Below are positions 4,813 through 42,120 of a stretch of 64,000 nucleotides of DNA, piece after piece (positions within the stretch are counted from its first letter, which is position 1; each line of letters starts with the position of its first letter). The translations under genes were made by a program, and so were the position numbers. Below the pieces are notes generated by a model that searched no databases, was not told the DNA's origin, and saw only the letters and a program-made list of their open reading frames with translations. This stretch comes from Owenweeksia hongkongensis DSM 17368 (GTDB taxonomy: Bacteria > Bacteroidota > Bacteroidia > Flavobacteriales > Schleiferiaceae): NCBI GenBank assembly GCA_945907425.1, contig CAMDTE010000001.1:1-64000 (forward strand), read 5' to 3'.

Positions 4813-6916
4813 ACAAGGACTTGATGGCTTTTCTAACAACCATCTCTCCCTCTGGTGTTTGCAAGAAAACCAAGTACAGTCCCGCAGGCAGAAATCGCAT
4901 ATCCAAGGTTCCGTCTGACTCTACGGGGATTTGAATCACTGCTCCAAAAGGATCCATCACCCGTACATCTCTCCTGTTTTCAGAGGATATTCCGACCCAT
5001 TTCGTGAACGATTGCACAGGGTTTGGAGACAAAAAACTCGCCCTGAATTCTCCTTCGAGAAGGCCAATGCCCGCAATGATCACCTGCTGCGTTGAAGAAT
5101 CAGATGCGCAAGCATTCATGGTTTTTAGTGTTACGGTATAGACTCCATTGGCGGCATACACATGAGATGCCCAGGCAACGGTCGTTCCCAGGGTTCCTCC
5201 GTCACCAAATTTCCAAAAAGAGGAATCGACGGGGGAAGAGGGTCCTGTAAATTGGACGGAGTCTATATACTGCGCATAGGTGAATTGGCTATTCACTCCA
5301 GCACAAACTACTGCCGATATACATAAGGTATCGGATGAGCAAGAGGAGAAAACCCGAGCACAAACCGTGTAGTTCCCTGGGATCAAATAGGTATGAGAGA
5401 CGATGGCATTTGTATCGGAAACGGTCGATCCATCTCCAAAACTCCAGAAGGTTGAATCGCCCTGGAGGCTGCTATTCAAAAACGTAGCGGTTAAATTTTG
5501 TCCTCCTATTTGGGCAATGGAGGCAATAGGTGAAACGCATGGTGTTAAGTCGACTCGCTGTGCATAGGGCCGAATCGTTCCGGAACGGTTTTCCGACCAG
5601 GTGGCTATCACCGCATTGTTGACAATGTTTCCTAAATCAAAGCGCCATTTAATTCCCGTGCTATTTGTCCCAACCGGCAGCGTTTGCGTTGGAAATAAAA
5701 AGTTCCCTAGCGTGTCCAGCCCCACCAGCAGCAAGGGTTTTGAGAATACACCGTTGGAATTCCCATCCGAGATGAGAAAATGAGGTTGATTATTCAAGAG
5801 TCTCAACGCACCATAAGGAGCCCTGTCAGCAGAACCCACCGCAAAAACAACCTTAGCATTGGCGCCCAGCAATTTTGCGCCTGTTTTCTTATGGTATTGT
5901 TGGACATAGGTTCCCTGGTTCGATTGACTGCTCGAAGTCCACTCTGCCACCGCCCAAACCCCTCGACCATCCGTCTCAATTGCAATGTTCGTTGCCCGTT
6001 CCAGTTGTGTTGATTGTGTGGCAAAATCTACTCCCGAAGTGGTCCAAGGCAGCGTTCCGTTGGGATTGATTCGCTGCAAATAGCTTTGAATATTCATTCC
6101 TGCGGCCCCTGAAAAACCAAAATACACGGTGTCCGCATCGGCAAGAAAATCATACCGGGTAAAAGTAGAGGTGTAGACCCCATTGGTCAGCGCCACGGCG
6201 CTTGGCCAGATTGCCAATCCGGCAGTGTTGAATTTTTGTGCGAAAGGCAATCCAGAAGGAGAAAAGCCGGTCCGGTCATGGTACAGTAACATGAATTTCC
6301 CAGAAGCTAACTCTACCAATTCTCCAATGTTTGTTTTGTGTCCAGTAACGGTAGGATTTATGACGATGGGATTGCTCCACGCGGGGACCCCTGCGATAGA
6401 AAGTTTTTGCAATTGACCTATCAATGCGGGTAAATACCCAACCACGGTTTCTCCCGAACTCAAGGGCAACAATTTAACATCATACCCCGTTCCTAAATTG
6501 ACTCCAGAGGTGCCAAACAACTGTAAGCCTGCCGGAGAAATCTTGTGAACCATGGCCGGAGTATTCCCGCCGGTCCCTGTAAAGCCAAGGAGGACGTTAT
6601 TCCAAGCATCCACCGCCATATCCCACGTCACGGTATAGGTGGACATGGGCACGGTCCCGTTGACAAGCAGTCCATTGGTCCCCAATTGCGGGACACCGTT
6701 TTGATCTAACAATTGAACCCGCATTTCATAATTCTGTGGGCTAGAAACGGGATTCCAAAAAGCAACCCAAGTTCGTCCATCGGGCGTGGTCATGCTTTTC
6801 ACATCTTCTGTAGGGCACCCGGCTACCAATGTATTCAGCGTTGTGTTGGAGGTCCACTGTGCAGACAACGAAAGCCCCATCGTCATCGTTAAAAAAACTA
6901 AGAAATATTTTTTCAT
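4811..6916 (-). CDS. secreted PKD-repeat protein with T9SS sorting domain
   Basis: This 701-residue protein starts with a signal peptide (MKKYFLVFLTMTMGLSLSAQ). The first 450 or so residues look like an extracellular beta-propeller-type region. Two PKD domains follow, each with the FWxFGDG...SHxY...G.Y.V signature, at about 485-530 and 560-610. The last 80 residues form a type A T9SS sorting domain: a SPNPV start, a Gly/Leu-Pro-AGLY segment and a basic end. It is predicted to cross the outer membrane by T9SS and end up on the surface or released. The upstream region has TACCTTTA at 6940-6947, a near-consensus -7 box. No catalytic function is visible. Confidence 0.88.
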   Translation of the reverse strand: MKKYFLVFLTMTMGLSLSAQWTSNTTLNTLVAGCPTEDVKSMTTPDGRTWVAFWNPVSSPQNYEMRVQLLDQNGVPQLGTNGLLVNGTVPMSTYTVTWDMAVDAWNNVLLGFTGTGGNTPAMVHKISPAGLQLFGTSGVNLGTGYDVKLLPLSSGETVVGYLPALIGQLQKLSIAGVPAWSNPIVINPTVTGHKTNIGELVELASGKFMLLYHDRTGFSPSGLPFAQKFNTAGLAIWPSAVALTNGVYTSTFTRYDFLADADTVYFGFSGAAGMNIQSYLQRINPNGTLPWTTSGVDFATQSTQLERATNIAIETDGRGVWAVAEWTSSSQSNQGTYVQQYHKKTGAKLLGANAKVVFAVGSADRAPYGALRLLNNQPHFLISDGNSNGVFSKPLLLVGLDTLGNFLFPTQTLPVGTNSTGIKWRFDLGNIVNNAVIATWSENRSGTIRPYAQRVDLTPCVSPIASIAQIGGQNLTATFLNSSLQGDSTFWSFGDGSTVSDTNAIVSHTYLIPGNYTVCARVFSSCSSDTLCISAVVCAGVNSQFTYAQYIDSVQFTGPSSPVDSSFWKFGDGGTLGTTVAWASHVYAANGVYTVTLKTMNACASDSSTQQVIIAGIGLLEGEFRASFLSPNPVQSFTKWVGISSENRRDVRVMDPFGAVIQIPVESDGTLDMRFLPAGLYLVFLQTPEGEMVVRKAIKSL

Positions 6917-6986: not shown

Positions 6987-7112
6987 TAGTCATTAGTAAT
7001 TAGTAATTAGTCACTAGTAATTAGTAACTACCCAACTATTAACTATTGACTAATGACTATTAACTATTGACTAATGACTATTAACTATTAACTACCCAAC
7101 TATAAACTATTA
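6987..7112. repeat. heptamer repeat array A
   Basis: The period is 7 bases. Six TAGTNNN units (6987-7028) are followed by the eight-base TACCCAAC, then eight units such as TATTAAC, TATTGAC and TAATGAC (7037-7092), a second TACCCAAC (7093-7100), and two more units. The first half is TAGT-like and the second half ACTA-like, so the array is an overall imperfect inverted repeat. It fills the gap between the PKD gene and the FG-GAP gene and supplies that gene's last codons. Confidence 0.9.
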
Positions 7113-21333: not shown

Positions 21334-22134
21334 TTAAATGTACGAAGTGGCTTTGATTAGCACTTTTGGATCTTCTAAGAAACTCAAATGCCCACCGGAA
21401 TGCAAGCAACGCGACGTGATGGCCGGTAAGGCCCAATAGGATTCCGTCAGAGAAAGGGGGATGATGGGATCGCGATGCCCCGCAACCACAACGATTGGGA
21501 AAGGCCACCTTTTCGCAAGAAGATCCCTGCGATCCACGCGTTGCATCATGCCTTCTTGGGCCGCGATGATGCCCTGCACAGTGAGGCCCCTGGCCTCACT
21601 GTGCATTTTTTCCAACTCCGCGGTGAGCTGTTGTACATGGGATGGATCCACTAAGGCGGTAATCGCCGCGCCCACGTAGGCGTGCCGAGCTTGCTTGGCC
21701 AAGGCCATGGCGCGGCGGCGGTTGCGCTTGCGTTCTTCAGAGTCTGCAAAAGGATGGGTGTTCAACAACAAAACTCCGCGCAACCGATGCGGCATGAGGG
21801 CTATCAACTCCAAGGCGATGTACCCGCCCAAGGAATGGCCGGCCACACGAAAAAAACGGATGTGCAAATGCCGCAGTACCGCCCAAGCGGCTTCGGCAAA
21901 GTCGCGCATGGTGTGTACATACCCTAAGTTTCCAGAATCTCCGTGACCTATTAAATCGACCGTTACTACGCGAAAGCGTTTGGCCCAGTGCTGCGCTACA
22001 AAATCAAAAGAGGAACGCGTTTCTAAAAAACCAGGCAATACCAAAAGTACAGGGGCTCCGGGGCGACCGTACGCGGTATACCCTATGGGAATCCCTTTGA
22101 AATCTACGGAATTCTTAATCCCAAGAGAGCTCAT
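21334..22134 (-). CDS. alpha/beta-fold hydrolase
   Basis: This 266-residue hydrolase has the nucleophile elbow GHSLGG (Ser101), an oxyanion-side LPGF loop (about 33-36), a candidate acid Asp in AGHRDPIIP and His in SGGHLSFLE near the C-terminus. The lid region is Arg-rich (ERKRNRRRAMALAKQARHA). No signal peptide, so cytoplasmic. The substrate is unknown; position between an aminopeptidase and the SDR/ALDH pair is compatible with a ring-cleavage hydrolase, but the sequence alone does not show it. Confidence 0.85.
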   Translation of the reverse strand: MSSLGIKNSVDFKGIPIGYTAYGRPGAPVLLVLPGFLETRSSFDFVAQHWAKRFRVVTVDLIGHGDSGNLGYVHTMRDFAEAAWAVLRHLHIRFFRVAGHSLGGYIALELIALMPHRLRGVLLLNTHPFADSEERKRNRRRAMALAKQARHAYVGAAITALVDPSHVQQLTAELEKMHSEARGLTVQGIIAAQEGMMQRVDRRDLLAKRWPFPIVVVAGHRDPIIPLSLTESYWALPAITSRCLHSGGHLSFLEDPKVLIKATSYI

Positions 22135-22137
22135 GGG

Positions 22138-23454
22138 CTATCCCTGCTCTAAGCGTGCGTTCCGCGCTTCCGCCATCAACGCTTCTATCTCCTCTATTTC
22201 TTTTGGAATGGCGCGTGTCAAATTAGTATGGCCCCCCTCCGTGATAACAATATTGTCTTCTATTCGAATGCCCAATCCTTCTTCTGGAATGTAAATCCCT
22301 GGCTCCACTGTGAAAACCATCCCGCATTGCATCGGCACATCCCACAAACCATAATCGTGCACATCCAATCCCAAATAATGGCTGGTTCCATGCATAAAAT
22401 ATTTTTTATAGGCGGGCCATTCGGGGTTTTGCTGCGCTACTTCTTCGGCTGTAATAAGTCCGAGATTCATCAATTCAGCCGTCATCAAGTCCCCCACTTT
22501 CGCATGGTACTCCTGAATAAACGTCCCCGGACGAAGCAGGGCAATCGCTCCTTTCTGGACACGAAGAACGGCCTCGTAAACCTGGCGTTGCCGAGGCGTA
22601 AACTGTCCATTGACAGGGAAGCATCGGGTCACATCGCAGGCATAATTGGCGTACACCGCACCGACATCAAACAAAACCACTTCGCCCTCTTCGCAGGGGG
22701 AATTGTTTTCAATGTAATGAAGCACGCACGCATTGGATCCACTTCCGATGATGGGAGTGTATGCAAATCCATCGGATCTTCTGCGAATGAATTCGTGTAG
22801 AAATTCTGCTTCCAACTCAAATTCCCACACCCCTGGGCGTAAAAAACGCAAAATTCTATCGTATCCGGCAGCCGTGATGGTGGCTGCCGTCTGCATGGCT
22901 TCCCATTCTGCGGGTTGCTTAATGGCGCGCAGGGCATTCAATAAGGGGGCCGACCGGAGGAACTGATGGTTTGGGAAGGCGGCCTTAATTTTGGCTCCTT
23001 CGCGCTCCTCACGGGTTTCCACTTCCGTTTTACGACGCAAATGTTCATGGGTTACCAAGTACACATTCTCCACTTGGGCCATGAGCTCCTTCAAAACACT
23101 TTCGTATTCCTGAAGCCAGTACACCGATTTGATTCCGCTGGTTTCAAATGCCTGTTCCTTGGTCAGTTTGGCTCCTTCCCACACGGCAATGGTTTCGTTC
23201 GTTTCTTTTAAAAAGAGTATTTCCCGGTGCTCTGGCTTAAAGGCCTCGGGGAAAACTAGCAAGATGCTCTCTTCTTGGTCCACCCCGCTCATCCACAAAA
23301 TATCCGTGGCTTGTTTGAAAGGGAAGGATCCGTCCGCACTCGTTGGATAAATATCCGCAGAATGAAAAATAGCCAAACTTTTGGCGGTCAAGTGCGCTGC
23401 AAATCGTTCTCTGTTGCGCACATAGAGAGAGGAAGGAAGGCGGTAGTATTTCAT
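22138..23454 (-). CDS. pepP: Xaa-Pro aminopeptidase (aminopeptidase P)
   Basis: This 438-residue metallopeptidase of the M24 family has an N-terminal creatinase-like domain (about 1-160) and a pita-bread catalytic domain. The metal ligands appear in order: Asp in LFDVGAVYANYACDVTR (two Asp), His in HGTSHYLGLDVHDYG, Glu in FTVEPGIYI and Glu in GIRIEDN. It removes N-terminal residues before proline in the cytoplasm. First gene of the operon; TATCTTCG (fwd CGAAGATA, 23473-23480) is a near-match -7 box 18 bases before the ATG. Confidence 0.93.
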   Translation of the reverse strand: MKYYRLPSSLYVRNRERFAAHLTAKSLAIFHSADIYPTSADGSFPFKQATDILWMSGVDQEESILLVFPEAFKPEHREILFLKETNETIAVWEGAKLTKEQAFETSGIKSVYWLQEYESVLKELMAQVENVYLVTHEHLRRKTEVETREEREGAKIKAAFPNHQFLRSAPLLNALRAIKQPAEWEAMQTAATITAAGYDRILRFLRPGVWEFELEAEFLHEFIRRRSDGFAYTPIIGSGSNACVLHYIENNSPCEEGEVVLFDVGAVYANYACDVTRCFPVNGQFTPRQRQVYEAVLRVQKGAIALLRPGTFIQEYHAKVGDLMTAELMNLGLITAEEVAQQNPEWPAYKKYFMHGTSHYLGLDVHDYGLWDVPMQCGMVFTVEPGIYIPEEGLGIRIEDNIVITEGGHTNLTRAIPKEIEEIEALMAEARNARLEQG

Positions 23455-23580
23455 GCGATGTTTTTACTACACCGAAGATACCACCGACAGAAGGGATTTC
23501 GCTTAAAATCTATAATCTAAACTGGCCGCAGAATAATTTTTCATCCCAACTCCTGTGGATGAAAGCGGTTGTTCCCCTTT

Positions 23581-24894
23581 TCATTTGTCTAAATTTTTTA
23601 ATAAGAATTCACGAAGATCAGCTGGCGTTAATCCCTTTGCAGCAATAGAAAGCTGAGGATCTAAAACTAAGAGTGTCGGAGTTGTTGGTATATAATAGTA
23701 ATGTCTAAAATTAATCTGCCCCATTCGGTTGTCGTATCCATTGACCCAATCGTACTGATTTTTCGTAATATAACTCTGCCACTCCTCCATGGTTGTCTCC
23801 GTTGAAATAGCAATCACATTTAATTTCGACTTAAACTCAGAAAATAGAGAGAAAATCATAGGCGTTACCTCCAGACAATGTTGGCAGGTAGCATCGTAAA
23901 AATACAATATTGTCCATTTTCCTTTGTAGTCATTCAAATGCTTCAATTGGCCTGTTGATTGGATAAATTCGAAGTTTGGAGCTACACTACCTATTAGATT
24001 CCATTGCAATTCATCGCTTTTAGCCACTATTTTTTTTAAGGTTTCAGGGGTTTCCCATTTGACCCTTCCCTTCTTGTAAAATTTATTTACAACATGCACG
24101 AACACCGCATCGTGACCCATGATTTTAGAATTTTCAAAATGATTGGCGAGCCAAGCAATGCAAAAGTTCTCAACCAAACTATCCATCTCCCTATTCCATA
24201 GGATATCAATAGCTACATTGATAGAATCCGCATCGGGATAAAACGCTTTCTCGAAAAAAGTTTGAAGGGAAGATTGTAAAAATGGGGAGCGCAGTAAAGC
24301 GGGATCGGAGAGAGGAACTTTCCCCCAGTATTGCTTCACCCAAAATTCAATTCCTCCCTTGGGTATTTCCGTTACTTGCAAAAGGGGATTACTCGCTTGT
24401 AATAATTTTGATATCCGAGCGTTCTCATGGGTCGCATGCCAATAGACTATTTGCTGATCGTATAGATTCTGTGCATCTTCCGCCGTTATACTGCCCGATT
24501 GAAACTGTTGGTTAATATTTGCGCCGATTTGTTGAAATTCAACGAACGATTTGTTTGCATCGTCTTTCCAGGTAACAGATGGCCACGGATCAGATTGTAA
24601 AGAAAGGTGGATATCCTCTTCCCCGACAAAAAAGTCCAAGGTTCTAGCAGAGTCTATGGAAATAAAATAAAATCCGGGTTTCAAGATGCCCTTGTTTTGA
24701 AAACAACCTTTCTTATCAAATACAATACTGTCTTCCAGTAATTTTTGACTACCCAAGTAATATCCAAGCACTCCTTTGGAGCGATCTACTCCTTGTATAC
24801 AGCCCGATAGGTTTTGGCTTCTTACGGGTAGAAACCATAAGAAGCCAATAATCAACGCTATGCTCTTAACGTACAATGTGCAATTTCTCAGCAT
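23581..24894 (-). CDS. TlpA/ResA-type thiol-disulfide protein with N-terminal DUF4369/DUF5106-like region
   Basis: This 437-residue protein has a signal peptide (to about residue 26) and a Bacteroidota-specific N-terminal and middle region resembling DUF4369 plus DUF5106. A thioredoxin fold occupies the last 130 residues with the redox motif CQHC after LYFYDAT, and a cis-proline-like PTTPTLLVLD. It probably reduces or exchanges disulfides in the periplasm. The gene is visibly more A/T-rich than its neighbours. It stands alone between the pepP operon and sdhCAB. Confidence 0.85.
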   Translation of the reverse strand: MLRNCTLYVKSIALIIGFLWFLPVRSQNLSGCIQGVDRSKGVLGYYLGSQKLLEDSIVFDKKGCFQNKGILKPGFYFISIDSARTLDFFVGEEDIHLSLQSDPWPSVTWKDDANKSFVEFQQIGANINQQFQSGSITAEDAQNLYDQQIVYWHATHENARISKLLQASNPLLQVTEIPKGGIEFWVKQYWGKVPLSDPALLRSPFLQSSLQTFFEKAFYPDADSINVAIDILWNREMDSLVENFCIAWLANHFENSKIMGHDAVFVHVVNKFYKKGRVKWETPETLKKIVAKSDELQWNLIGSVAPNFEFIQSTGQLKHLNDYKGKWTILYFYDATCQHCLEVTPMIFSLFSEFKSKLNVIAISTETTMEEWQSYITKNQYDWVNGYDNRMGQINFRHYYYIPTTPTLLVLDPQLSIAAKGLTPADLREFLLKNLDK

Positions 24895-25079
24895 GAATTA
24901 GTTGTTTGTTTGTTTTTATGTATTACTGAATACAACCCTTGGTGCAATATAATACTTATACTAAATCGTCAACTTGGACTCCACTGTCCTTTTTGCTATT
25001 GCCTGTCAATCCCCAATAAGCCCAAGGAGCGAATTGCGCTTTCTGGAAAATCCGGCATACAACGGAGCTGTTTGCCCCC

Positions 25080-25087
25080 TACTTTTG
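25080..25087 (+). promoter_or_regulatory. -7 box of the sdh operon
   Basis: TACTTTTG, an exact TAnnTTTG, 30 bases before the sdhC ATG. A -33 TTG at ideal spacing is not obvious. The 220-base region upstream (24895-25079) shows no gene or RNA that I recognise. Confidence 0.6.
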
Positions 25088-25117
25088 CACGGTACAAACT
25101 CATTGTGATTTTAATTT

Positions 25118-25798
25118 ATGGCAACTGGAAAAGGTCTTTTTGGCAGCTCTATAGCCCGCAAATACTGGATGGCCTTGACGGGCCTGTTTTTGTGTAGCTT
25201 CTTGGTTATTCACCTATTGGGAAATATACCCTTGATGCTGGGCCATCAAGACGATTTCAACCTATACGCTCGGTTCATGACCACCTTCCCGGTCATTAAA
25301 GCCGTGAGCTACTTATTGTACGCGAGCTTTGTTGTGCATGCTGTGGATGGGATCCTCTTGATGCGTCAAAATGCCGCAGCCCGCCCCGTGAAATACGCTG
25401 CGTACAACGGAGCGGCCAATGCCTCGTGGTCCAGTAGAAACATGGGCCTTTTGGGCGTTTTTACCTTGGTCTTTATTGTCGTTCACTTGAAAAGTTTTTG
25501 GTACGAAATGCATTTTGGAAAAATCCCCGTGTACATCTATGAGGACGGAACAGAGCTGAAAGACTTGTACACCCTAACAGTGACTGCTTTTCAAGAACTT
25601 TGGTACACCGTCTTTTATGTCGTTTCCATGGCTCTGTTGGGTCTTCATTTATGGCATGGCTTTTCTTCGGCCTTTCAGTCGTTGGGCCTGACCCACCCGA
25701 AATACACTCCGATGATAAAAATCGCAGGCGCTTTTTTTGCCCTTGTGATTCCCGCCGTCTTTGCTGCCATCCCTGTGGTCATTTATTTGGCTTCCTAA
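25118..25798 (+). CDS. sdhC: succinate dehydrogenase cytochrome b subunit
   Basis: This 226-residue integral membrane protein has five hydrophobic helices, the single-subunit diheme type of Bacteroidota and Wolinella. Heme-ligand candidates are the His residues in helices 1-2 and 4-5 (SFLVIHLLGN, SFVVHAVDG, FIVVHLKSF, MALLGLHLWHG). It anchors SdhA/SdhB and passes electrons to menaquinone. First gene of sdhCAB, 13 bases before sdhA. Confidence 0.93.
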   Translation: MATGKGLFGSSIARKYWMALTGLFLCSFLVIHLLGNIPLMLGHQDDFNLYARFMTTFPVIKAVSYLLYASFVVHAVDGILLMRQNAAARPVKYAAYNGAANASWSSRNMGLLGVFTLVFIVVHLKSFWYEMHFGKIPVYIYEDGTELKDLYTLTVTAFQELWYTVFYVVSMALLGLHLWHGFSSAFQSLGLTHPKYTPMIKIAGAFFALVIPAVFAAIPVVIYLAS

Positions 25799-25811
25799 GA
25801 ATTGAGTTGAC

Positions 25812-27815
25812 ATGAAAGTAGATGCACGCATCCCCCAAGGTCCTATTGCAGACAAGTGGACAGAATACAAAGGCCATGTGCCGTTGGTTAGCCCTGCCAA
25901 TAAACGCCGAATCGATATCATCGTTGTGGGAACCGGTCTTGCGGGCAGTTCCGCCGCGGCTTCTTTGGCGGAATTGGGTTACAATGTAAAAGCCTTTTGT
26001 TTTCAAGATTCTCCGCGCCGGGCTCACTCCATTGCAGCGCAAGGGGGCATCAATGCCGCCAAAAATTACCAAAACGATGGAGATTCTACTTTCCGATTGT
26101 TTTATGACACCGTAAAAGGCGGCGACTACCGCAGCCGCGAGGCCAATGTGCATCGCTTGGCCGAAGTAAGTGCCAGTATTATTGATCAATGTGTGGCTCA
26201 GGGGGTTCCTTTTGCTAGGGATTACGGCGGCCAGTTGGACAATCGCTCCTTTGGGGGCGTTCAGGTTAGCCGTACTTTTTATGCCAAAGGCCAAACGGGG
26301 CAACAACTCCTATTGGGGGCCTACTCTGCACTTTCCAGACAAATTGCCAAGGGCCGTGTGAAAATGTACAATCGCCACGAGATGGTAGATGTGGTGATGG
26401 TCGATGGAAAGGCGCGGGGGATTATCGCCAAAGATTTGTTGACAGGTCAGATGGAAAGACACGGTGCGCACGCTGTTTTGCTGTGCACAGGCGGATACGG
26501 CAATGTGTTTTATTTGAGTACCAATGCGATGGGCTCCAACGTAACGGCCGCATGGAAGGCGCACAAAAAAGGTGCTTTCATGGCCAATCCTTGTTTTACG
26601 CAAATTCACCCCACCTGCATCCCTCTCAGCGGTGATCATCAGTCCAAATTGACTTTGATGTCCGAATCTCTACGGAACGATGGAAGGATTTGGGTTCCTG
26701 CGCGCAAAGAAGATGCATTGGCCATTCGGGAAGGTCGATTGAAGCCTACCGATTTACCAGAAGAGTTGCGCGATTATTATTTGGAACGACGTTACCCTGC
26801 CTTCGGAAATCTCGTGCCGCGTGACGTGGCTTCTCGAGCAGCCAAAGAGCGGTGCGACGAAGGGCATGGAGTGAACGCCACCGGTGAAGCCGTTTATTTA
26901 GATTTTGCGGCCGCGATTGAACGGTACGGAAAGGAACAAGCCACTTTGAAGGGGTTGCACCACGCTACGGTGGAGGAAATCCAAACGATGGGTACCGCTA
27001 TTGTCGAAAGCAAATACGGCAACCTCTTTCAGATGTACGAGAAAATCACGGCGAACAATCCTTACCTCACGCCCATGATGATCTATCCGGCCGTTCACTA
27101 TACTATGGGTGGATTGTGGGTGGATTACAATCTCATGACCACCGTTCCGGGGCTGTTTGCCTTGGGCGAGGCCAATTTCTCTGATCACGGAGCCAATCGT
27201 TTGGGCGCTTCCGCTTTGATGCAAGGGTTGGCAGACGGCTATTTTGTCATTCCTTATACCATCGGAGAATTTTTGGCCGATGATATTCGAACCGGCAGCA
27301 TTTCTACCGATTCCCCGGAATTTACCGCTGCGGAAAAATCCGCTACCGATCGCCAATCGGCCTTGTTGAATGCCAAGGGAGCCACACCAGTAGACGTGTT
27401 TCATCGCCGTTTAGGGAAAATCATGTGGGACAAATGCGGTATGGCCAGAAATGCGCAGGGTTTACAAGAGGCCATTGCTGAGATTAGAAAACTCCGAGAA
27501 GAATTCTACCAAGAGGTGCGGATACCTGGAAAGGCGGAAGGTCTCAATGTGGAACTCGATAAAGCGGGCCGTGTGGCTGATTTCTTAGAATTGGGCGAAC
27601 TGATGTGCCTGGATGCCTTGGCGCGGGAAGAATCCTGTGGTGGTCATTTCCGCGAAGAACACCAATCCCCAGAAGGAGAGGCGCTTCGGGACGATGCTCG
27701 CTTTGCTCACGTGGCCCTATGGGAACAAGTGCAGGGAGATCCCGGTCAATCCATTCGCCACGTAGAAGAACTCGTTTTTGAAAATGTAAAACTCATTACC
27801 CGTAGTTACAAATGA
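25812..27815 (+). CDS. sdhA: succinate dehydrogenase/fumarate reductase flavoprotein
   Basis: This 667-residue catalytic subunit has an FAD-binding [10 protein letters not shown] (about 37-46), the flavinylation region [14 protein letters not shown] (His near residue 72), substrate-site residues in [11 protein letters not shown] and the catalytic Arg region [12 protein letters not shown], and a C-terminal helical domain with the CGGHFREEH segment. It oxidises succinate to fumarate, or the reverse. The length (about 640-670) is usual for the Bacteroidota type. Its last four bases overlap the sdhB start (ATGA). Confidence 0.96.
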
Positions 27816-28555
27816 ACTTCATCCTAAAAATTTGGCGCCAAAGCGGCCCCTCTGAGGCCGGTCAAATGGTTACCTACCCCGTTTCTCATGTGAGTCAGGA
27901 TATGTCTTTCTTGGAAATGATCGATGAACTCAATATAGATCTCATTCAAAAAGGAGAAGAACCCGTTGTTTTTGACCACGATTGCCGCGAAGGTATTTGC
28001 GGAATGTGCTCCCTCTTCATCAATGGAGAGGCGCACGGTCCCGGCAGAGCTGTGACGACGTGTCAACTGCACATGCGTGAGTTCAAAGAGGGCGATGTCA
28101 TCACGATTGAACCGTGGCGCGCAGAAGCTTTTCCGGTGATCAAAGACTTGATGGTCGACCGCACGGCTTTTGATCGCATCATTCAGGCAGGAGGCTATGT
28201 TTCGGTGAACACCTCTGGAAACATCCCGGATGCCAATGCTCTTTTGGTTCCCAAAGTAGATGCAGATGCGGCTTTCGATGCGGCCTCTTGCATTGGTTGT
28301 GGTGCGTGCGTAGCCACTTGTAAAAATGCTTCCGCCATGTTGTTTGTTTCAGCGAAAGTGAGCCAATTTGCTCTGTTGCCGCAAGGCCGAGTGGAAGCGG
28401 CTGAACGAGTTCAAAACATGGTGCGCCAAATGGATTTGGAAGGCTTTGGAAGCTGCACCAATACAGGCGCGTGCGAAGTAGAATGTCCGGCCGGTATCAG
28501 TATTGAAAACATTGCGCGTATGAACCGCGAATTTTTAAAGGCTTCTCTGGGGTAA
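27812..28555 (+). CDS. sdhB: succinate dehydrogenase iron-sulfur subunit
   Basis: This 247-residue protein has an N-terminal [2Fe-2S] ferredoxin domain (Cys in [11 protein letters not shown] and TTCQLH) and a C-terminal bacterial ferredoxin domain with [13 protein letters not shown] and, later, [10 protein letters not shown], providing ligands for the [4Fe-4S] and [3Fe-4S] clusters. It links SdhA to the SdhC hemes. Start overlaps sdhA by four bases. Confidence 0.95.
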
Positions 28556-32928: not shown

Positions 32929-33284
32929 TGGTTTATGGTTGATAGTTTATAGTTTATAGTCATTAGTCACTGGTCGCTGGTCACTGGTCACTGGTCACTG
33001 GTCCCTCGTCCCTCGTCCCTCGTTGAATGGAATAAAAATATCGACTACAAACGAATGAACGACAAACTAATGACTAATGACTATTTACTATAAACTGGTC
33101 ACTGGTCGGTAGTCACTGGCCCATGTCCCTCGTTCAATGGAATAAAAATATCGCCTACAAACGAATGAACGACAAACTAATGACTATTGACTAATGACTA
33201 TTGACTAATGACTATTTACTAATGACTAATGACCATTTACTAATGACTATTTACTATAAACTGGTCACTGACCCCTAGTCCCTC
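32929..33284. repeat. heptamer repeat array B with a 110-base internal duplication
   Basis: Thirteen uninterrupted heptamers (TGGTTTA, TAGTCAC, TGGTCAC, TCGTCCC and similar) fill 32929-33019. A segment from GTCCCTCGTT (33015) is repeated from 33125 with few changes over the first 60 bases (period 110), each followed by ACTAATGACTA-type heptamers in the opposite sense and by TATAAACTGGTCACTG. The whole 365-base gap between the adenosyltransferase and the PurF-like gene is this repeat; no gene is seen in it. Confidence 0.9.
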
Positions 33285-36787: not shown

Positions 36788-37735
36788 CTATTTTCGGCGG
36801 TAACTCAAAACTTTTGGGCGACCAATAAACACTCTTTCGCTGAGCAGAAAATAATCTCCCTGCGGTGACCAAGCAAAAATTTCGCCCTGCAATTCACGTG
36901 GTTTATAAGGTAGTTTTGTAGGGGTTCTTTGTAGCGCGTGTTCTATGGATTCACGCGGTTTCTTTTCCCATCGATACAAAGATTCGTACGTCCGAATAGC
37001 TATTTCCACTCCCCCTGAAGGCAACAATCTTGCTGCCGCCCCCGTGGTATAGGTTAACGGGATTTCCCCTCTGAATTGTGCGAGTTCTGCATCGGTGTTC
37101 GATGATTCCTTTTCCCACGGCAAGACGTATACCCGATTGGCCGCCTCTCGTTTGCTCACCACAAAAATCTGTCCCGTAACGGGGTGAATAAAAAGCGATT
37201 CGGCATCCCTTGGGCCATCCGCATAGGAGAACTCTCTACTTCTGAGTGAGGATGGCTCATACTCCACTGTATCCCCAGGCTCTCCTTCTATTTCGGAGGC
37301 TTTGGGCTCATGAAAACAATACAATTGCACCCGATTTCGGGTTCCCTCGTTATCGCCAATATCTCCAATCACCAACCACCGTTTGCCAGAAACATCGCGC
37401 CATTCCGCTAATTCCTCCCAATCCTGATTGACAACTCCTTCTATTCTAATCCTTTTGATGACCGCTCCAGAGGCCGTTTCCACCAAATACAGATAGGCTG
37501 ACGTTCCCCCATCTTCCACAACCCATAAGCATCCGGGGAACGATTCCGATACAACGGCCCCAGAGGACTCGGTTAAATCAACATACCCGATGCTTTGCGT
37601 TGCCACTGTATCAAACAAAGGATCCAACTGTGCGCTGGACAACAAATAATCGGCCTTAAAAGGTTTGCGCGAGGGTCCTGTTTCAGTACAAGAATCCATG
37701 ACAACCACCGCAAGGAGGAGAAAAAGAAAACGCAT
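36788..37735 (-). CDS. exported beta-propeller-like protein
   Basis: This 315-residue protein starts MRFLFLLLAVVVMDSC, a short hydrophobic signal with a poor lipobox, so it may be a lipoprotein. The body has repeated beta-rich motifs seen in uncharacterised propeller proteins: ESSGAVVSESFPGCLWVVEDGG, split as ESSG...LWVVEDGG, QDWEELAEW, VIGDIGDNEG, and DAESLFIHPVTGQIFVVSK. No catalytic residues can be assigned. ATG 37735 was chosen over 37768 because the upstream 11 codons lack signal character and a TATCTTTA box (37739-37746) ends three bases before it. Convergent with HAAO. Confidence 0.75.
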   Translation of the reverse strand: MRFLFLLLAVVVMDSCTETGPSRKPFKADYLLSSAQLDPLFDTVATQSIGYVDLTESSGAVVSESFPGCLWVVEDGGTSAYLYLVETASGAVIKRIRIEGVVNQDWEELAEWRDVSGKRWLVIGDIGDNEGTRNRVQLYCFHEPKASEIEGEPGDTVEYEPSSLRSREFSYADGPRDAESLFIHPVTGQIFVVSKREAANRVYVLPWEKESSNTDAELAQFRGEIPLTYTTGAAARLLPSGGVEIAIRTYESLYRWEKKPRESIEHALQRTPTKLPYKPRELQGEIFAWSPQGDYFLLSERVFIGRPKVLSYRRK

Positions 37736-37764
37736 GTTTAAAGATACAAAGAGGGGGGGAATAG

Positions 37765-37939
37765 TCAATAGTTGATAGTTTATAGTGGGTAGTCAATGGT
37801 TGATAGTCAATGGTTGATAGTTGATAGTCAATAGTTTGTAGTTGATAGTTTGTAGTCAATAGTTGATAGTCAATAGTTTGTAGTTGATAGTTTGTAGTCA
37901 ATAGTTTGTAGTCAATAGTTTATAGTCAATAGTTTATAG
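37765..37939 (+). repeat. heptamer repeat array C (25 perfect-phase units)
   Basis: Twenty-five uninterrupted 7-base units, mainly TCAATAG, TTGATAG, TTTGTAG and TTTATAG, with no phase slip over 175 bases; degenerate edges extend to about 37760 and 37950. Read in this orientation each unit ends in TAG. The following 178 bases (37951-38128) hold no gene or RNA that I can recognise. Confidence 0.95.
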
Positions 37940-38128
37940 TTAGTTGGTAGGCATTGGTTGTGGGAGGAATGCGTGTTTGGTGACTTCATACTCCCGGCGC
38001 TTTTGTACCCATTTGTACTCATCGGGGTGACTAAAAAGATATATTCTTGCAGTGATGCATTCAAAGCAATTTCAATAGCCAGATAGAGATTGGAAATAAT
38101 ACAAAAGTCTCCTTTTAATTAAATTGAA

Positions 38129-38590
38129 ATGTTATACAAAGAATTACAAGAGAGTGAATGGACGGGAAACAAAGTGCCTTTAATCCAAATGGGGGCATTG
38201 TTTATCCTAAAGGGACGGGAGAGAATCATGGATGTTTTTGATTCCCTTTTTAATCGGTTTTCCATCGGGGAATTTTCCATTCAGCCAAACAAGAAACTAA
38301 AATCGTTGACTTCTGAATTTAAAAAGACATTTCGTTTGACTTTGGTCGTTTATAAGGACGGTGATATTGCTAATGAAGATCTAACCTTGGCCGGTTTTAA
38401 CAAACGATTTTCTAAAAATATCAATCTTAGGGGATGTGGTTGGTATATAGGCGCGCAAATGAAAATTGGCGCTGTAGAAAAATTATTTGAAAAGCATTTT
38501 TGTGTTTCCGTTCAAATAAAAGACGATTTTGGGCAACATATTATTCCAAAGGAGTTTACTTTGGAAGAAGCCGCCAGAAAGATTTTTTAA
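38129..38590 (+). CDS. unknown protein in A/T-rich island
   Basis: This 153-residue protein has no signal peptide or membrane helix. It shows a mixed alpha/beta pattern with a Lys-rich middle (NKKLKSLTSEFKKTF) and ends with EFTLEEAARKIF. I recognise no family. Composition and codon use are more A/T-rich than in neighbours. With the next gene it lies between arrays C and D. It may be a recently acquired accessory gene; a small regulatory or toxin/antitoxin-like role cannot be judged. Confidence 0.6.
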   Translation: MLYKELQESEWTGNKVPLIQMGALFILKGRERIMDVFDSLFNRFSIGEFSIQPNKKLKSLTSEFKKTFRLTLVVYKDGDIANEDLTLAGFNKRFSKNINLRGCGWYIGAQMKIGAVEKLFEKHFCVSVQIKDDFGQHIIPKEFTLEEAARKIF

Positions 38591-38658
38591 TCCCTTTGGA
38601 GTTACTGAGGGGCAGACAAAACTTCACTTTCTCCTTTTCTTCTCCGTGTAGATTGCAG

Positions 38659-38666
38659 TACTTTTG
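38659..38666 (+). promoter_or_regulatory. -7 box of the 38683 gene
   Basis: TACTTTTG, an exact TAnnTTTG, 16 bases before ATG 38683. It shows the second island gene has its own promoter. Confidence 0.5.
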
Positions 38667-38682
38667 AATCAAGTTTGATTCT

Positions 38683-39900
38683 ATGCCGGCAGCTGTATTA
38701 CAATTCACCTCTCTAAATCGCAATGGATTAAAAAATGCCCTTCAGGCGAAATCGGGAATTTCGCTAGTGGATACCTATTCATGCAAATTGCTTTCTGAAT
38801 TAATCTATACGGCCACCGGGGAATTAGTGAACTACAATACGCTTAGGCGCGTATTGGGCATTATTAATTCTGTCGGCGCTCCAAGTGACTATACCCTTTC
38901 TGTTCTTGCGAAGTTTTTAGGCTTTCCGGATTGGCAGGGCTATAGGAATTGGGAAGAACAACTCGACAATGAGCGCTTTTTGATAAAGAGTCAATTAGTG
39001 ACTGGCTTTGGAAAGTACGAAATGCGTTGGATCAAAGATTTCAAGGACCAATTGACCTTTAGAAATTGGATTGAATTTTTTCAATTAAAATCTTTGGTAG
39101 ACGCGGCTATTCAACATAGAGACCAGGAACTACTCTTGTTAATTACTGATTTAAATATTCAGGATTCAGATCCTTTAGTGTTCCAACGATTGTTTATGTC
39201 CTTCGAATCGGTCATCTGGAAATCTCAGCGATCCGAAAAGGATTACTGGGAATGGATTGGGGAGGTTTTACTGCGCAGACCTGTATTTCGTCAGGTAATT
39301 TTAGAATTGTATGTGAACGAAAATGCATTGGAAGGGTATTTTGGATATTGGTTGAATCTACCCTATCCCGTTGTTTCGAAGGAGTTTACAGTTTTTAGAC
39401 GGCTTTTGAACGGGCAATTGGAGGTAACGTCCAATCAGGATGACACTTTATTTAAAGAGTTTATCCAGAGTACCATTCAAGGCAATGATTGGAAGGAGTT
39501 TCACCCCATCATCAAAGGACGGTTGGCGGCGTGGTCTTATATATTGGACATTACGGACATCTCAGCGGAGGAATTGTTTGCGGAATGCAAAGCAGATTCT
39601 GACAAGATTGCATTTATCTCTTTTTATTATCGATTGATCTGGCTTATCAAGGGAATCAACAGTCCTATTGCCTTGAATTGGAAATCCTTAGACCGTCCCC
39701 GAGGCTTACTGTCCACTTTTGAGTACGTAGATTGGAATAACTATTTTACCATACAAGCCATAAATGCTCGTCTCGCAGGGGATAGAGAATGCTGTCAGTC
39801 GTTCATTTCCAAGGTAGATCCCTATCTATTCTCGTCGGATTACTTTGAATGGTTTAAAGTGCACTACGATGCATGCAGGGAGTTTGCTCAAGCAACTTGA
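38683..39900 (+). CDS. Bacteroidota-type putative regulator with N-terminal HTH-like region
   Basis: This 405-residue protein has an N-terminal part (about 20-90) resembling a helix-turn-helix seen in many uncharacterised Bacteroidota proteins: a CKLLSELIYTATG segment, NYNTLRRVLG, then PSDYTLSVLAKFLGF and W-rich residues. The rest is helical and Trp-rich, without catalytic motifs or membrane segments, and may form helical repeats. A/T-rich like its neighbour. It could sense or regulate something local to the island, but the function is unknown. Confidence 0.65.
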   Translation: MPAAVLQFTSLNRNGLKNALQAKSGISLVDTYSCKLLSELIYTATGELVNYNTLRRVLGIINSVGAPSDYTLSVLAKFLGFPDWQGYRNWEEQLDNERFLIKSQLVTGFGKYEMRWIKDFKDQLTFRNWIEFFQLKSLVDAAIQHRDQELLLLITDLNIQDSDPLVFQRLFMSFESVIWKSQRSEKDYWEWIGEVLLRRPVFRQVILELYVNENALEGYFGYWLNLPYPVVSKEFTVFRRLLNGQLEVTSNQDDTLFKEFIQSTIQGNDWKEFHPIIKGRLAAWSYILDITDISAEELFAECKADSDKIAFISFYYRLIWLIKGINSPIALNWKSLDRPRGLLSTFEYVDWNNYFTIQAINARLAGDRECCQSFISKVDPYLFSSDYFEWFKVHYDACREFAQAT

Positions 39901-39996
39901 ACTAGCCTCCTGGTTGGTTTGACACCAGCCAACAAAAATGGATTTTCTTTCTGCATTTTAAGTGCGCCGCTTTGGAACTATTCACGCGGGATAACC

Positions 39997-40136
39997 ATAA
40001 ACCACTGACTATAAACTATAAACCAGCAACTATAAACTATAAACTAGCGACTATAAACCAGCGACTATAAACTATAAACCACTGACTATAAACTATAAAC
40101 CACCAACTATAAACTATAAACCACTGACTATAAACC
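39997..40136 (-). repeat. heptamer repeat array D (20 perfect-phase units)
   Basis: Twenty uninterrupted 7-base units, mainly ATAAACC, ATAAACT, ACTGACT and AGCGACT on the + strand. On the minus strand these read as the TTTATAG/AGTCAGT type, so array D is inverted relative to array C. It sits between the island and the padR promoter. The 96 bases from 39901 to 39996 hold no gene. Confidence 0.95.
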
Positions 40137-40177
40137 ATTCCAACTACTCTGCATAACATAATACCAATTATTACACA

Positions 40178-40192: not shown

Positions 40193-40510
40193 ATGAACGA
40201 AGAAAATGCAAAGGCGCAAATGCGCAAAGGAGTATTGGAACTCTGTGTTTTACGTATAGTGCGCGCCGATGAAGTGTATACATCCGACATCACTGAACGG
40301 TTGAAGGCGGCGGAAATGCTCGTTGTGGAAGGCACTTTGTATCCATTGCTCACGCGCATGAAAAATGCCGGATGGCTTTCATATCGATGGGAGGAAAGCA
40401 AATCGGGGCCCCCCAGAAAGTATTATCAAATCACCCCCTCTGGCGAAATTTTCCTTGGTCAGTTGGAAAAAGAATGGAAAGCATTTACTCAAGCTGTTGA
40501 TTCATTGTAA
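40193..40510 (+). CDS. PadR-family transcriptional regulator
   Basis: This 105-residue protein has the PadR winged helix: KGVLELCVLRIV, an ITERLKAAEM recognition region and the hallmark EGTLYPLLTRMKNAGWLSYRW, split as EGTLYPLL...GWLSYRW, then PPRKYYQITPSG. No long C-terminal dimer domain, so it is the short PadR-s2 type. It probably represses its own operon with the PspC gene 11 bases downstream, a pairing common in Bacteroidota. Confidence 0.93.
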   Translation: MNEENAKAQMRKGVLELCVLRIVRADEVYTSDITERLKAAEMLVVEGTLYPLLTRMKNAGWLSYRWEESKSGPPRKYYQITPSGEIFLGQLEKEWKAFTQAVDSL

Positions 40511-40521
40511 AAAATAAAGTC

Positions 40522-42120
40522 ATGAAAAAAACCATAGACATCCATTTGGCAGGATTGCGATTTCATTTGGACGAAGACGCCTATTTTCGGTTGAACGAAT
40601 ATTTGGAATCGCTCCGTAAAGCACTGGCCAGCACCCTGGGAAGTGAGGAGATTCTGTCGGATATAGAAGGGAGAATAGCGGAGTTGTTCCATGGGATGCT
40701 GATGGCTTCGAAACAGGTCATTGCTTTGAACGAGGTGGATCGTGTGATCGCTTTGCTCGGGAATCCAGAGGAATACGTGGACTCTGCTGATGCGATGGAA
40801 TCCGTTGGAAAACCAGAAACTAAACGATTGTTTAGGGATCCGGACGACCAGATTATTGGAGGTGTTGCGTCGGGAATCTCGGCCTATTTTTCTATCGACC
40901 CGGTCATTATTCGCGTTATCATGGCCTTGCTGTTTTTCGTGGGCGGCTTTGGGGCTGGGTTTTATATTTTGCTCTGGATAGTCATCCCCGAGGCAAAATC
41001 GACCTCCGACAGACTGCGCATGCGGGGTGAAAAAATCACCTGGCAAAACATTCAAAAAACAGTGCACGATGAACTGGATGGCGTCGCGAACAGATCCTCT
41101 CGGTTTACCAAAGGCCAAAGTTTTCGTCAAACCAAAAACAAAGCCGGACAAGTCGTAAGCGAAGCCTTTGACTCGATCGGACAAATTTTGATGTACATCC
41201 TCCATTTTGTCGCCAAAGCGATCGGTGTGGTGCTAATGATCGTCAGTATTTCTGTAGGAATCTCCGTAGCTGTCATACTTTTTGGAGAAGGAATCAACGT
41301 CAATGGGGCGCTGATTGCGCCCCAACAATTGCAAACGTTAGTAGACGTGTTTGCTCCCGCGGGATTTTCAATGACCTCGCTCGTTTTGCTCCTTATCCTT
41401 CTATTATTGGGGCCTATTTTTGGGATTTTCAGCCTGGGGGCGCGTATTCTTTTCAATATTCCCTGGAAAACGCCCGCTCTGCGCCTGTTGAATGGGGGGG
41501 CAACCCTATTGTTTATCTCCGCCACCATCCTTTTGTTTTATTTTGGATCCAAAACGGGTCGAGAATTTCATGAAGAAGCCTCCATCACCCGTAGCCTGAC
41601 CCTTCCTACTGTACAGCGGTGGTCTGTCGTTGCCGTGGATGCACCTATTCCTCCGGTAACGTTAGAATTCAGTTTCAACGAAGAGGAGTACAACAGCAAA
41701 GAATGGGTATTTACCGAAGATCACGTGTACACCAGCTTGGTGTACTTTGATGTGGTCCCCAGCGCGGATGGAAAAGCACGCGTAGATGTTCAAGCCAAGG
41801 CCAACGGATCCACCAGAAGAAGTGCCAGAGAAAGGGCTGGCTCGGTAGGGTACAACGCCAGCGTGGACAGCGCAGGGAAAATTGCTTTGGATTCCTATTT
41901 GTCTTTCGCAAAACAGGATCGGTTCCGGGGGCAAAACATTCAGGTTACACTGTATTTACCCATCGGCCATAGTGTGTATTTGGATCCTTCCAGCATCGAA
42001 TTAATCTACGATATTGAAAACGTAGAAAATGTTTACGATGCGGATATGGTCGGTCAATGGTGGTTAATGACCGAAGTTGGACTGGTTCCTCATTCGTCTG
42101 GGATGCCCCTAATGGATTAA
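40522..42120 (+). CDS. PspC-domain membrane protein
   Basis: This 532-residue protein has a soluble N-terminal region (about 1-90), a PspC domain (about 93-160: RDPDDQIIGGVASGISAYFSIDP, split as DQIIGGV...AYFSIDP, then a helix ending LLWIVIPEA), further membrane helices around 215-245, 280-310 and 325-345, and a C-terminal beta-rich part. PspC proteins respond to envelope stress. It is co-transcribed with PadR. Its TAA stop shares bases with the stop of convergent msrA (4-base overlap). Confidence 0.9.
   Translation: MKKTIDIHLAGLRFHLDEDAYFRLNEYLESLRKALASTLGSEEILSDIEGRIAELFHGMLMASKQVIALNEVDRVIALLGNPEEYVDSADAMESVGKPETKRLFRDPDDQIIGGVASGISAYFSIDPVIIRVIMALLFFVGGFGAGFYILLWIVIPEAKSTSDRLRMRGEKITWQNIQKTVHDELDGVANRSSRFTKGQSFRQTKNKAGQVVSEAFDSIGQILMYILHFVAKAIGVVLMIVSISVGISVAVILFGEGINVNGALIAPQQLQTLVDVFAPAGFSMTSLVLLLILLLLGPIFGIFSLGARILFNIPWKTPALRLLNGGATLLFISATILLFYFGSKTGREFHEEASITRSLTLPTVQRWSVVAVDAPIPPVTLEFSFNEEEYNSKEWVFTEDHVYTSLVYFDVVPSADGKARVDVQAKANGSTRRSARERAGSVGYNASVDSAGKIALDSYLSFAKQDRFRGQNIQVTLYLPIGHSVYLDPSSIELIYDIENVENVYDADMVGQWWLMTEVGLVPHSSGMPLMD

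Follow-up and report, generated by a model that had tools for sequence, protein, structure and literature searches.

Arrays C and D, two heptamer arrays that face each other across a two-gene island in Owenweeksia hongkongensis, are best read as the arms of a single, lineage-specific convergent heptamer locus situated in dispensable spacer DNA, with horizontally acquired DNA between them. On this reading, the arrays would not terminate a mobile element. We assign this reading a probability of roughly 0.7. The window, by which we mean the whole 64-kb stretch that was analyzed, is part of a 96-kb contig in a draft genome of 1.55 Mb (124 contigs, 91% complete), the only genome of its species that was analyzed. 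Features of the locus are listed in Table 1.

Table 1. Coordinates of the array C/D locus and of array pairs A and B within the window.
Feature	Position	Strand	Remarks
Array pair A	6987..7097		TRGT then ACYA; no gene inside
Array pair B	32929..33259		TRGT, repeated in part, followed by ACYA; empty of genes; congener spacer ~50 bp, array-free
Left ancestral flank gene, 326 aa as listed	36788..37768	-	Secreted, unknown function; conserved beside PadR-PspC in both congeners (G001, G002), 38% identity
Array C	37762-37943, degenerate units trailing to ~37957	+	~26 in-phase TRGTYNN heptamers
Spacer, array C to island gene 1	37958..38128		No gene remnant or repeat found
Island gene 1, 153 aa	38129..38590	+	Belongs to no family; weak prediction of a tandem beta-grasp (ubiquitin-like) fold
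Island gene 2, 405-aa putative regulator	38683..39900	+	HTH-like N-terminal domain followed by helical repeats; weakly RRNPP-like architecture
Spacer, island gene 2 to array D	39901..39990		
Array D	39994-40140	- (ACYA on plus)	~21 in-phase heptamers of array C's family
Right ancestral flank gene, PadR-family regulator	40193..40510	+	Pfam PF03551, E 2.5e-17; kept in congeners
PspC-domain envelope protein, downstream of PadR	40522..42120	+	Pfam PF04024; 48% identical in both congeners

Arrays C and D share a family but are not inverted copies

An earlier note, made from the sequence alone, had described C (25 units, plus sense) and D (20 units, minus sense) as phase-perfect period-7 arrays of one family, inverted relative to each other. 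The arrays are real and far beyond chance. Array C comprises 26 TRGT-type units in one in-phase run and array D comprises 21, also in one in-phase run, on the opposite strand; in the 64-kb window, three consecutive TAGTNNN units were matched 43 times, against 0 expected from 100 dinucleotide shuffles. The common family and opposite strands were likewise upheld, but the two arms are not inverted copies, since unit order and unit variants differ between them. The longest exact match between array C and the reverse complement of array D is 14 bp and lies inside the tandem arrays, and with only 14 bp identical, the idea that C and D recombine as long homologous inverted repeats was rejected. Pooled over the whole genome, the heptamer reads T(A/G)GT(T/C)(A/G/T)N, with an invariant G at position 3 and T at position 4, an invariance that is partly by construction because the parser required GT there. 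Each of the two arrays abuts an ancestral flank gene, which is what a pair native to this spacer would be expected to do. The left flank gene likely starts at an ATG near 37735, and the promoter-like sequence that precedes padR is retained to the right of array D.

Arrays and island are both absent from the congeners

In congeners G001 and G002 the 326-aa gene adjoins padR-pspC, with about 160 bp between them and neither array nor island. Because both have only this short spacer at the same site, the island is an insertion. The earlier note had proposed comparing 37.7-40.1 kb across strains, and had taken presence and synteny of the island genes in all relatives, including those without arrays, as the outcome that would speak against its reading; island and arrays proved to be missing from 2/2 congeners, in which the flank genes are adjacent. 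From this comparison of sequences, the arrays and the island both appear to be new in this lineage. Loss of both in the lineage of the congeners seems less likely, because every other array locus is also array-free there.

The composition of the island is foreign. GC content is 35.7% in island gene 1 and 41.1% in island gene 2, which places them at the 0.1 and 0.8 percentiles of the genome's genes (mean gene GC, 48.3 +/- 2.6%). The description of two A/T-rich genes without recognizable function between the arrays was thus confirmed, and neither gene had a match in Pfam, NCBIfam, PADLOC or PHROGs. The empty PADLOC search led us to reject a defense-system family. A phage or plasmid origin was rejected as well: the 153-aa gene was unmatched in phages and viral contigs, the 405-aa gene was unmatched in plasmids, and PHROGs returned nothing.

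Homologues of the 405-aa protein were found in 10/78 relatives, in ordinary chromosomal settings without arrays; one of them, 25% identical, is present at a different locus in congener G002. The window also contains, at 21334-28555, an sdhCAB-thioredoxin-aminopeptidase-hydrolase block that in G002 (L106) has a 405-aa-type gene beside the hydrolase, and this gene is missing there in the window. Members of the 405-aa family are Bacteroidota proteins with an N-terminal SYNTxRRFFGL HTH-like domain followed by helical repeats, and have no Pfam match. The 153-aa protein has few homologues, which lie in array-free settings beside a KAP NTPase or MORN-repeat gene. This family consists of small proteins, with tandem duplicates in relatives beside a KAP NTPase gene (L246 1492-1848, L247 1212-1899).

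Searches by sequence gave no convincing PDB relatives. The AlphaFold model of the 405-aa protein has an N-terminal helical domain with the look of an HTH (pLDDT ~90) and a helical C-terminal remainder of low confidence. ComR, PrgX, AimR and Rap recurred among its weak Foldseek matches (E >= 0.24), with ComR and PrgX appearing again at Z 5-6, and the family is possibly one of RRNPP-like regulators. For the 153-aa protein, nearly all top Foldseek matches were ISG15 or (di)ubiquitin, and these were weak (E >= 0.05, Z <= 5, mean pLDDT 71). The models hint at a beta-grasp, ubiquitin-like protein and an RRNPP-like one, and neither assignment is secure.

TRGTYNN arrays fill spacers throughout the genome

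A scan for lag-7 repetition, which covered 1.365 of the 1.55 Mb, recovered 20 stretches, all of the TRGTYNN family, while control periods of 5, 6, 8, 9, 10 and 11 gave 0-3 each. Apart from C/D, the family occupies about 15 loci, most of which enclose no gene. Its arrays lie in spacers whatever the orientation of the adjacent genes, and some are inside the pyrH-frr, cox3-cox4 and metH-metF operons (names read from translations). Three-unit TAGT matches numbered 128 in this genome and 0 in either congener genome. Spacers that hold arrays measure 365, 205, 217, 118 and 750 bp here, as opposed to ~50, 42-63, 3-18, 40-46 and 105-127 bp, respectively, in the congeners, whose values are approximate because distances were taken from protein matches. 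The exception is the pyrH-frr spacer, which is longer in the congeners.

Most pairs hold no captured DNA, but on contig C27 (L109; G000; 4876-5612) a decayed IS3-family OrfA (MKKERRKYSAQFKTKVALEAIKE..., identified by eye from its translation) lies between the arms of a convergent pair, in a convergent-gene spacer that measures 105-127 bp in the congeners. Because this pair also holds foreign DNA, such DNA has settled in the middle of a pair more than once.

Contigs C29, C38, C62 and C66 of the draft end inside arrays. Next to the arrays at the ends of C66 (L115, 6812-6952) and C62 (L114, 1-140) lie genes for an Lrp-type regulator and GAPDH that adjoin each other in a congener, so the assembly broke in the array, and the two contigs probably join there.

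Paired arrays have a fixed polarity and lie close to their 5' neighbors

In this genome, paired arrays run in the order TRGT...ACYA, i.e., they converge, in 6 cases and in the reversed order in 0. We also examined 80 loci, drawn from named genomes in a scan of the whole database, and defined a partner as an array of at least 3 units within 300 bp. The partner lay downstream at 16 distinct loci and upstream at 0 (chance, 0.1), and the 16 loci include Nitrospirae, Clostridia, Planctomycetes, cyanobacteria, Atribacterota, Elusimicrobia, a deltaproteobacterium and Bacteroidetes. At the wider separation of 0.5-1.5 kb there were 3 reversed neighbors (L269, L278 and L307), that of L269 beyond a gene. 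When exact patterns were sought in 395 Bacteroidota genomes, the TRGT...ACYA order was found in 8 genomes and the reverse order in 2, but both reverse-order genomes and 1 forward genome owe their matches to tandem arrays of ACTAGTN, a palindromic unit that satisfies both patterns trivially. With palindromic-unit arrays excluded, 8 loci in 7 Bacteroidota genomes had the TRGT...ACYA order and 0 the reverse. Long tandem arrays of the self-palindromic unit, unlike the convergent pairs seen elsewhere, are found on contigs C6, C15 and C19 of G426 (33-34 pattern matches).

Position relative to genes is also biased. Here, 14/16 arrays are nearer to the 5' neighboring gene (mean distance 16 vs. 184 nt; p = 0.004). 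Genes were called with a simple ORF caller. C and D both conform when measured from the ancestral flank genes. The rule is weaker in the cross-phylum sample: 46/68 arrays are nearer to the 5' neighbor (median 16.5 vs. 86.5 nt), and in spacers shorter than 1 kb a gene lies within 30 nt on the 5' side in 38/62 cases, as compared with 14/62 on the other side. A Nitrospirae array hairpin (L264, 2421-2502) sits directly between two tRNA-like sequences, and its arms share unit types in shifted order. An Oscillospiraceae pair (L320, 317-389) begins 2 nt past a stop codon and has arms made of the same four heptamers in a different order. At L408 (G014:C7, 3046-7136), a cluster of TRGT arrays on a single strand, with higher-order repeats of ~50 bp, lies among several small genes.

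Comparison with known heptamer systems

Rehm et al. (2015) described GGGAATC heptamers in Xanthomonas that form 70-75 convergent pairs and have no known function or mechanism (PMC4692102). The GGGAATC and GGGGA(C/T)T arrays of Xanthomonas and Nostoc/Anabaena resemble those reported here in consisting of degenerate 7-bp intergenic units that are dispersed, occur on both strands and include many convergent pairs (PMC4692102). Both kinds lie close to the 5' neighboring ORF, in the Rehm arrays whatever the orientation of that ORF, and the Xanthomonas GGGAATC arrays average 28 nt to the 5' ORF and 160 nt to the downstream one (PMC4692102). In contrast to the Rehm arrays, which are G-rich (GGGANTN) and G-quadruplex-capable (PMC4692102), the TRGTYNN unit is devoid of G-tracts and therefore forms no G-quadruplex. 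Loci are shared at a level of 90% between two Xanthomonas species (PMC4692102), whereas none is shared here with the congeners, and foreign genes inside a pair, as found here, are not described for the Rehm arrays (PMC4692102).

TAACTGA direct repeats, for which a role in translational control was proposed, occur in Beggiatoaceae, cyanobacteria and some Bacteroidetes (MacGregor 2015, PMC4679880). They have the general form of the TRGTYNN heptamer, reading CAGTTAT in TRGT phase, and lie mostly in ACYA-type orientation before a start codon, with one case of the reversed orientation after a stop codon (PMC4679880). As in this genome, the corresponding spacers of relatives are shorter and free of repeats, and the arrays break assemblies (PMC4679880). 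They differ in having one fixed unit in mostly short direct sets, with a single inverted case in BOGUAY (PMC4679880), where the arrays studied here have many unit variants and convergent pairs. The exact TAACTGA unit, CAGTTAT in phase, was absent from the 270 units parsed from this genome.

Degenerate TDNGATT or NNTGAGT heptamers on the two stem arms of the Nostoc trnL intron P6b (Kaasalainen et al. 2015, PMC4476775) are also gained and lost in whole 7-nt steps, but these belong to a folded RNA within one group I intron and are not dispersed in spacers. The TRGTYNN arrays are a new motif of convergent intergenic heptamer arrays of the Rehm type, and a member of neither the GGGAATC nor the TAACTGA family. 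In our synthesis, the data of Rehm and of MacGregor, when read in one frame, obey the same rule as the TRGTYNN arrays.

Origin of the C/D locus

On the reading that we favor, the convergent C/D locus would have arisen solely in this lineage, in the spacer that separates the 326-aa gene from padR. Strand-directional expansion, through polymerase slippage or an equivalent 3'-extension, would have spread the arrays by lengthening the TRGT strand away from the gene edge, and the arrays would be largely neutral spacer sequence. The two-gene island was presumably acquired horizontally, and would sit in the middle of the pair because the middle is the dispensable part of the spacer. It may have entered an existing C/D pair, or it may have been captured while the pair formed; the material at hand, one genome of the species and two array-free congeners, includes no known intermediate with a C/D pair but no island at this site. 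A caveat is that slippage by itself leaves the constant strand order unexplained.

That polarity is better explained by healing of a double-strand break, in which both 3' ends would be extended by TRGTYNN and the island captured at joining, so that arrays and island would date from one event. From the gene edge the TRGT strand invariably extends in the 3' direction, the arrays abut genes, the arms have independent unit orders, and foreign DNA lies mid-pair twice, as the island here and as the IS3 remnant in C27. Nonetheless, no heptamer-adding enzyme is known, and most pairs are free of captured DNA. This genome, 91% complete, lacks Ku, so that Ku-dependent end joining was rejected, and arrays do not track Ku across relatives. 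We regard break healing with capture as unlikely. A broader proposal, in which a directional process spanning phyla adds degenerate heptamers to 3' ends at the borders of genes, with the TRGT strand pointing outward, and takes up foreign DNA at the meeting point of the two ends, is likewise unlikely and a shade more doubtful.

The earlier note had taken the arrays to bound a mobile or recombinogenic cassette, which would make them terminal inverted repeats at which a recombinase or transposase inserts, excises or inverts the island. Like inverted-repeat-bounded islands and composite transposons, the locus has foreign genes between inverted sequences and is absent in relatives; the island is A/T-rich and missing from this site in both congeners. 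It differs from them in lacking exact terminal inverted repeats and a target-site duplication and in that the flanking family mostly carries no cargo. Arrays of the same TRGT...ACYA polarity fill many spacers without cargo, and homologues of both island genes occur without arrays. No transposase or recombinase was found in the island or among the flanks scanned with Pfam. The remark in the same note that no known insertion sequence bounds the island holds. The island is single-copy, with no copies or remnants elsewhere in the genome, its inner edges have no direct or inverted repeat of at least 9 bp, and exact identity between the arms does not exceed 14 bp. The cassette is not supported by these observations, and we hold it to be quite improbable.

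Slightly less probable again, and by our estimate very improbable, is that paired arrays are functional hairpins, serving as terminators, mRNA stabilizers or protein-binding sites that set expression of the flank genes. Compared with shuffles, pairs do fold much better (z -5 to -9; z -15 for C and D joined), arrays hug gene ends, and MacGregor proposed translational control for TAACTGA arrays (PMC4679880). Inverted arrays, however, fold by construction, and some single arrays (C71, D) fold no better than shuffles. There is no counterpart in the congeners, and since arrays lie between genes of all orientations and inside the three operons named above, a terminator or operator role was rejected as the main account. 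An assembly artefact, in which unrelated contigs were joined through repeats, is scarcely credible: several contigs of the draft do end in arrays, but in both congeners the sequences flanking C and D lie side by side, so that the outside join is right, and the same array pairs are present in isolate and complete genomes.

For this window, the reading of C and D as arms of one expanded spacer locus corrects a tempting interpretation, in that inverted arrays around foreign genes need not be mobile-element ends. It also links a local pattern to a property of heptamer repeats that is both general and unexplained, namely a fixed strand order and a position at gene edges that hold across phyla and across heptamers, and the origin of the arrays thereby becomes testable. 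Should heptamers be added to 3' ends and foreign DNA be captured between them, the process would resemble, in bacteria, the addition of terminal repeats to broken ends and would at the same time be a route of gene acquisition.
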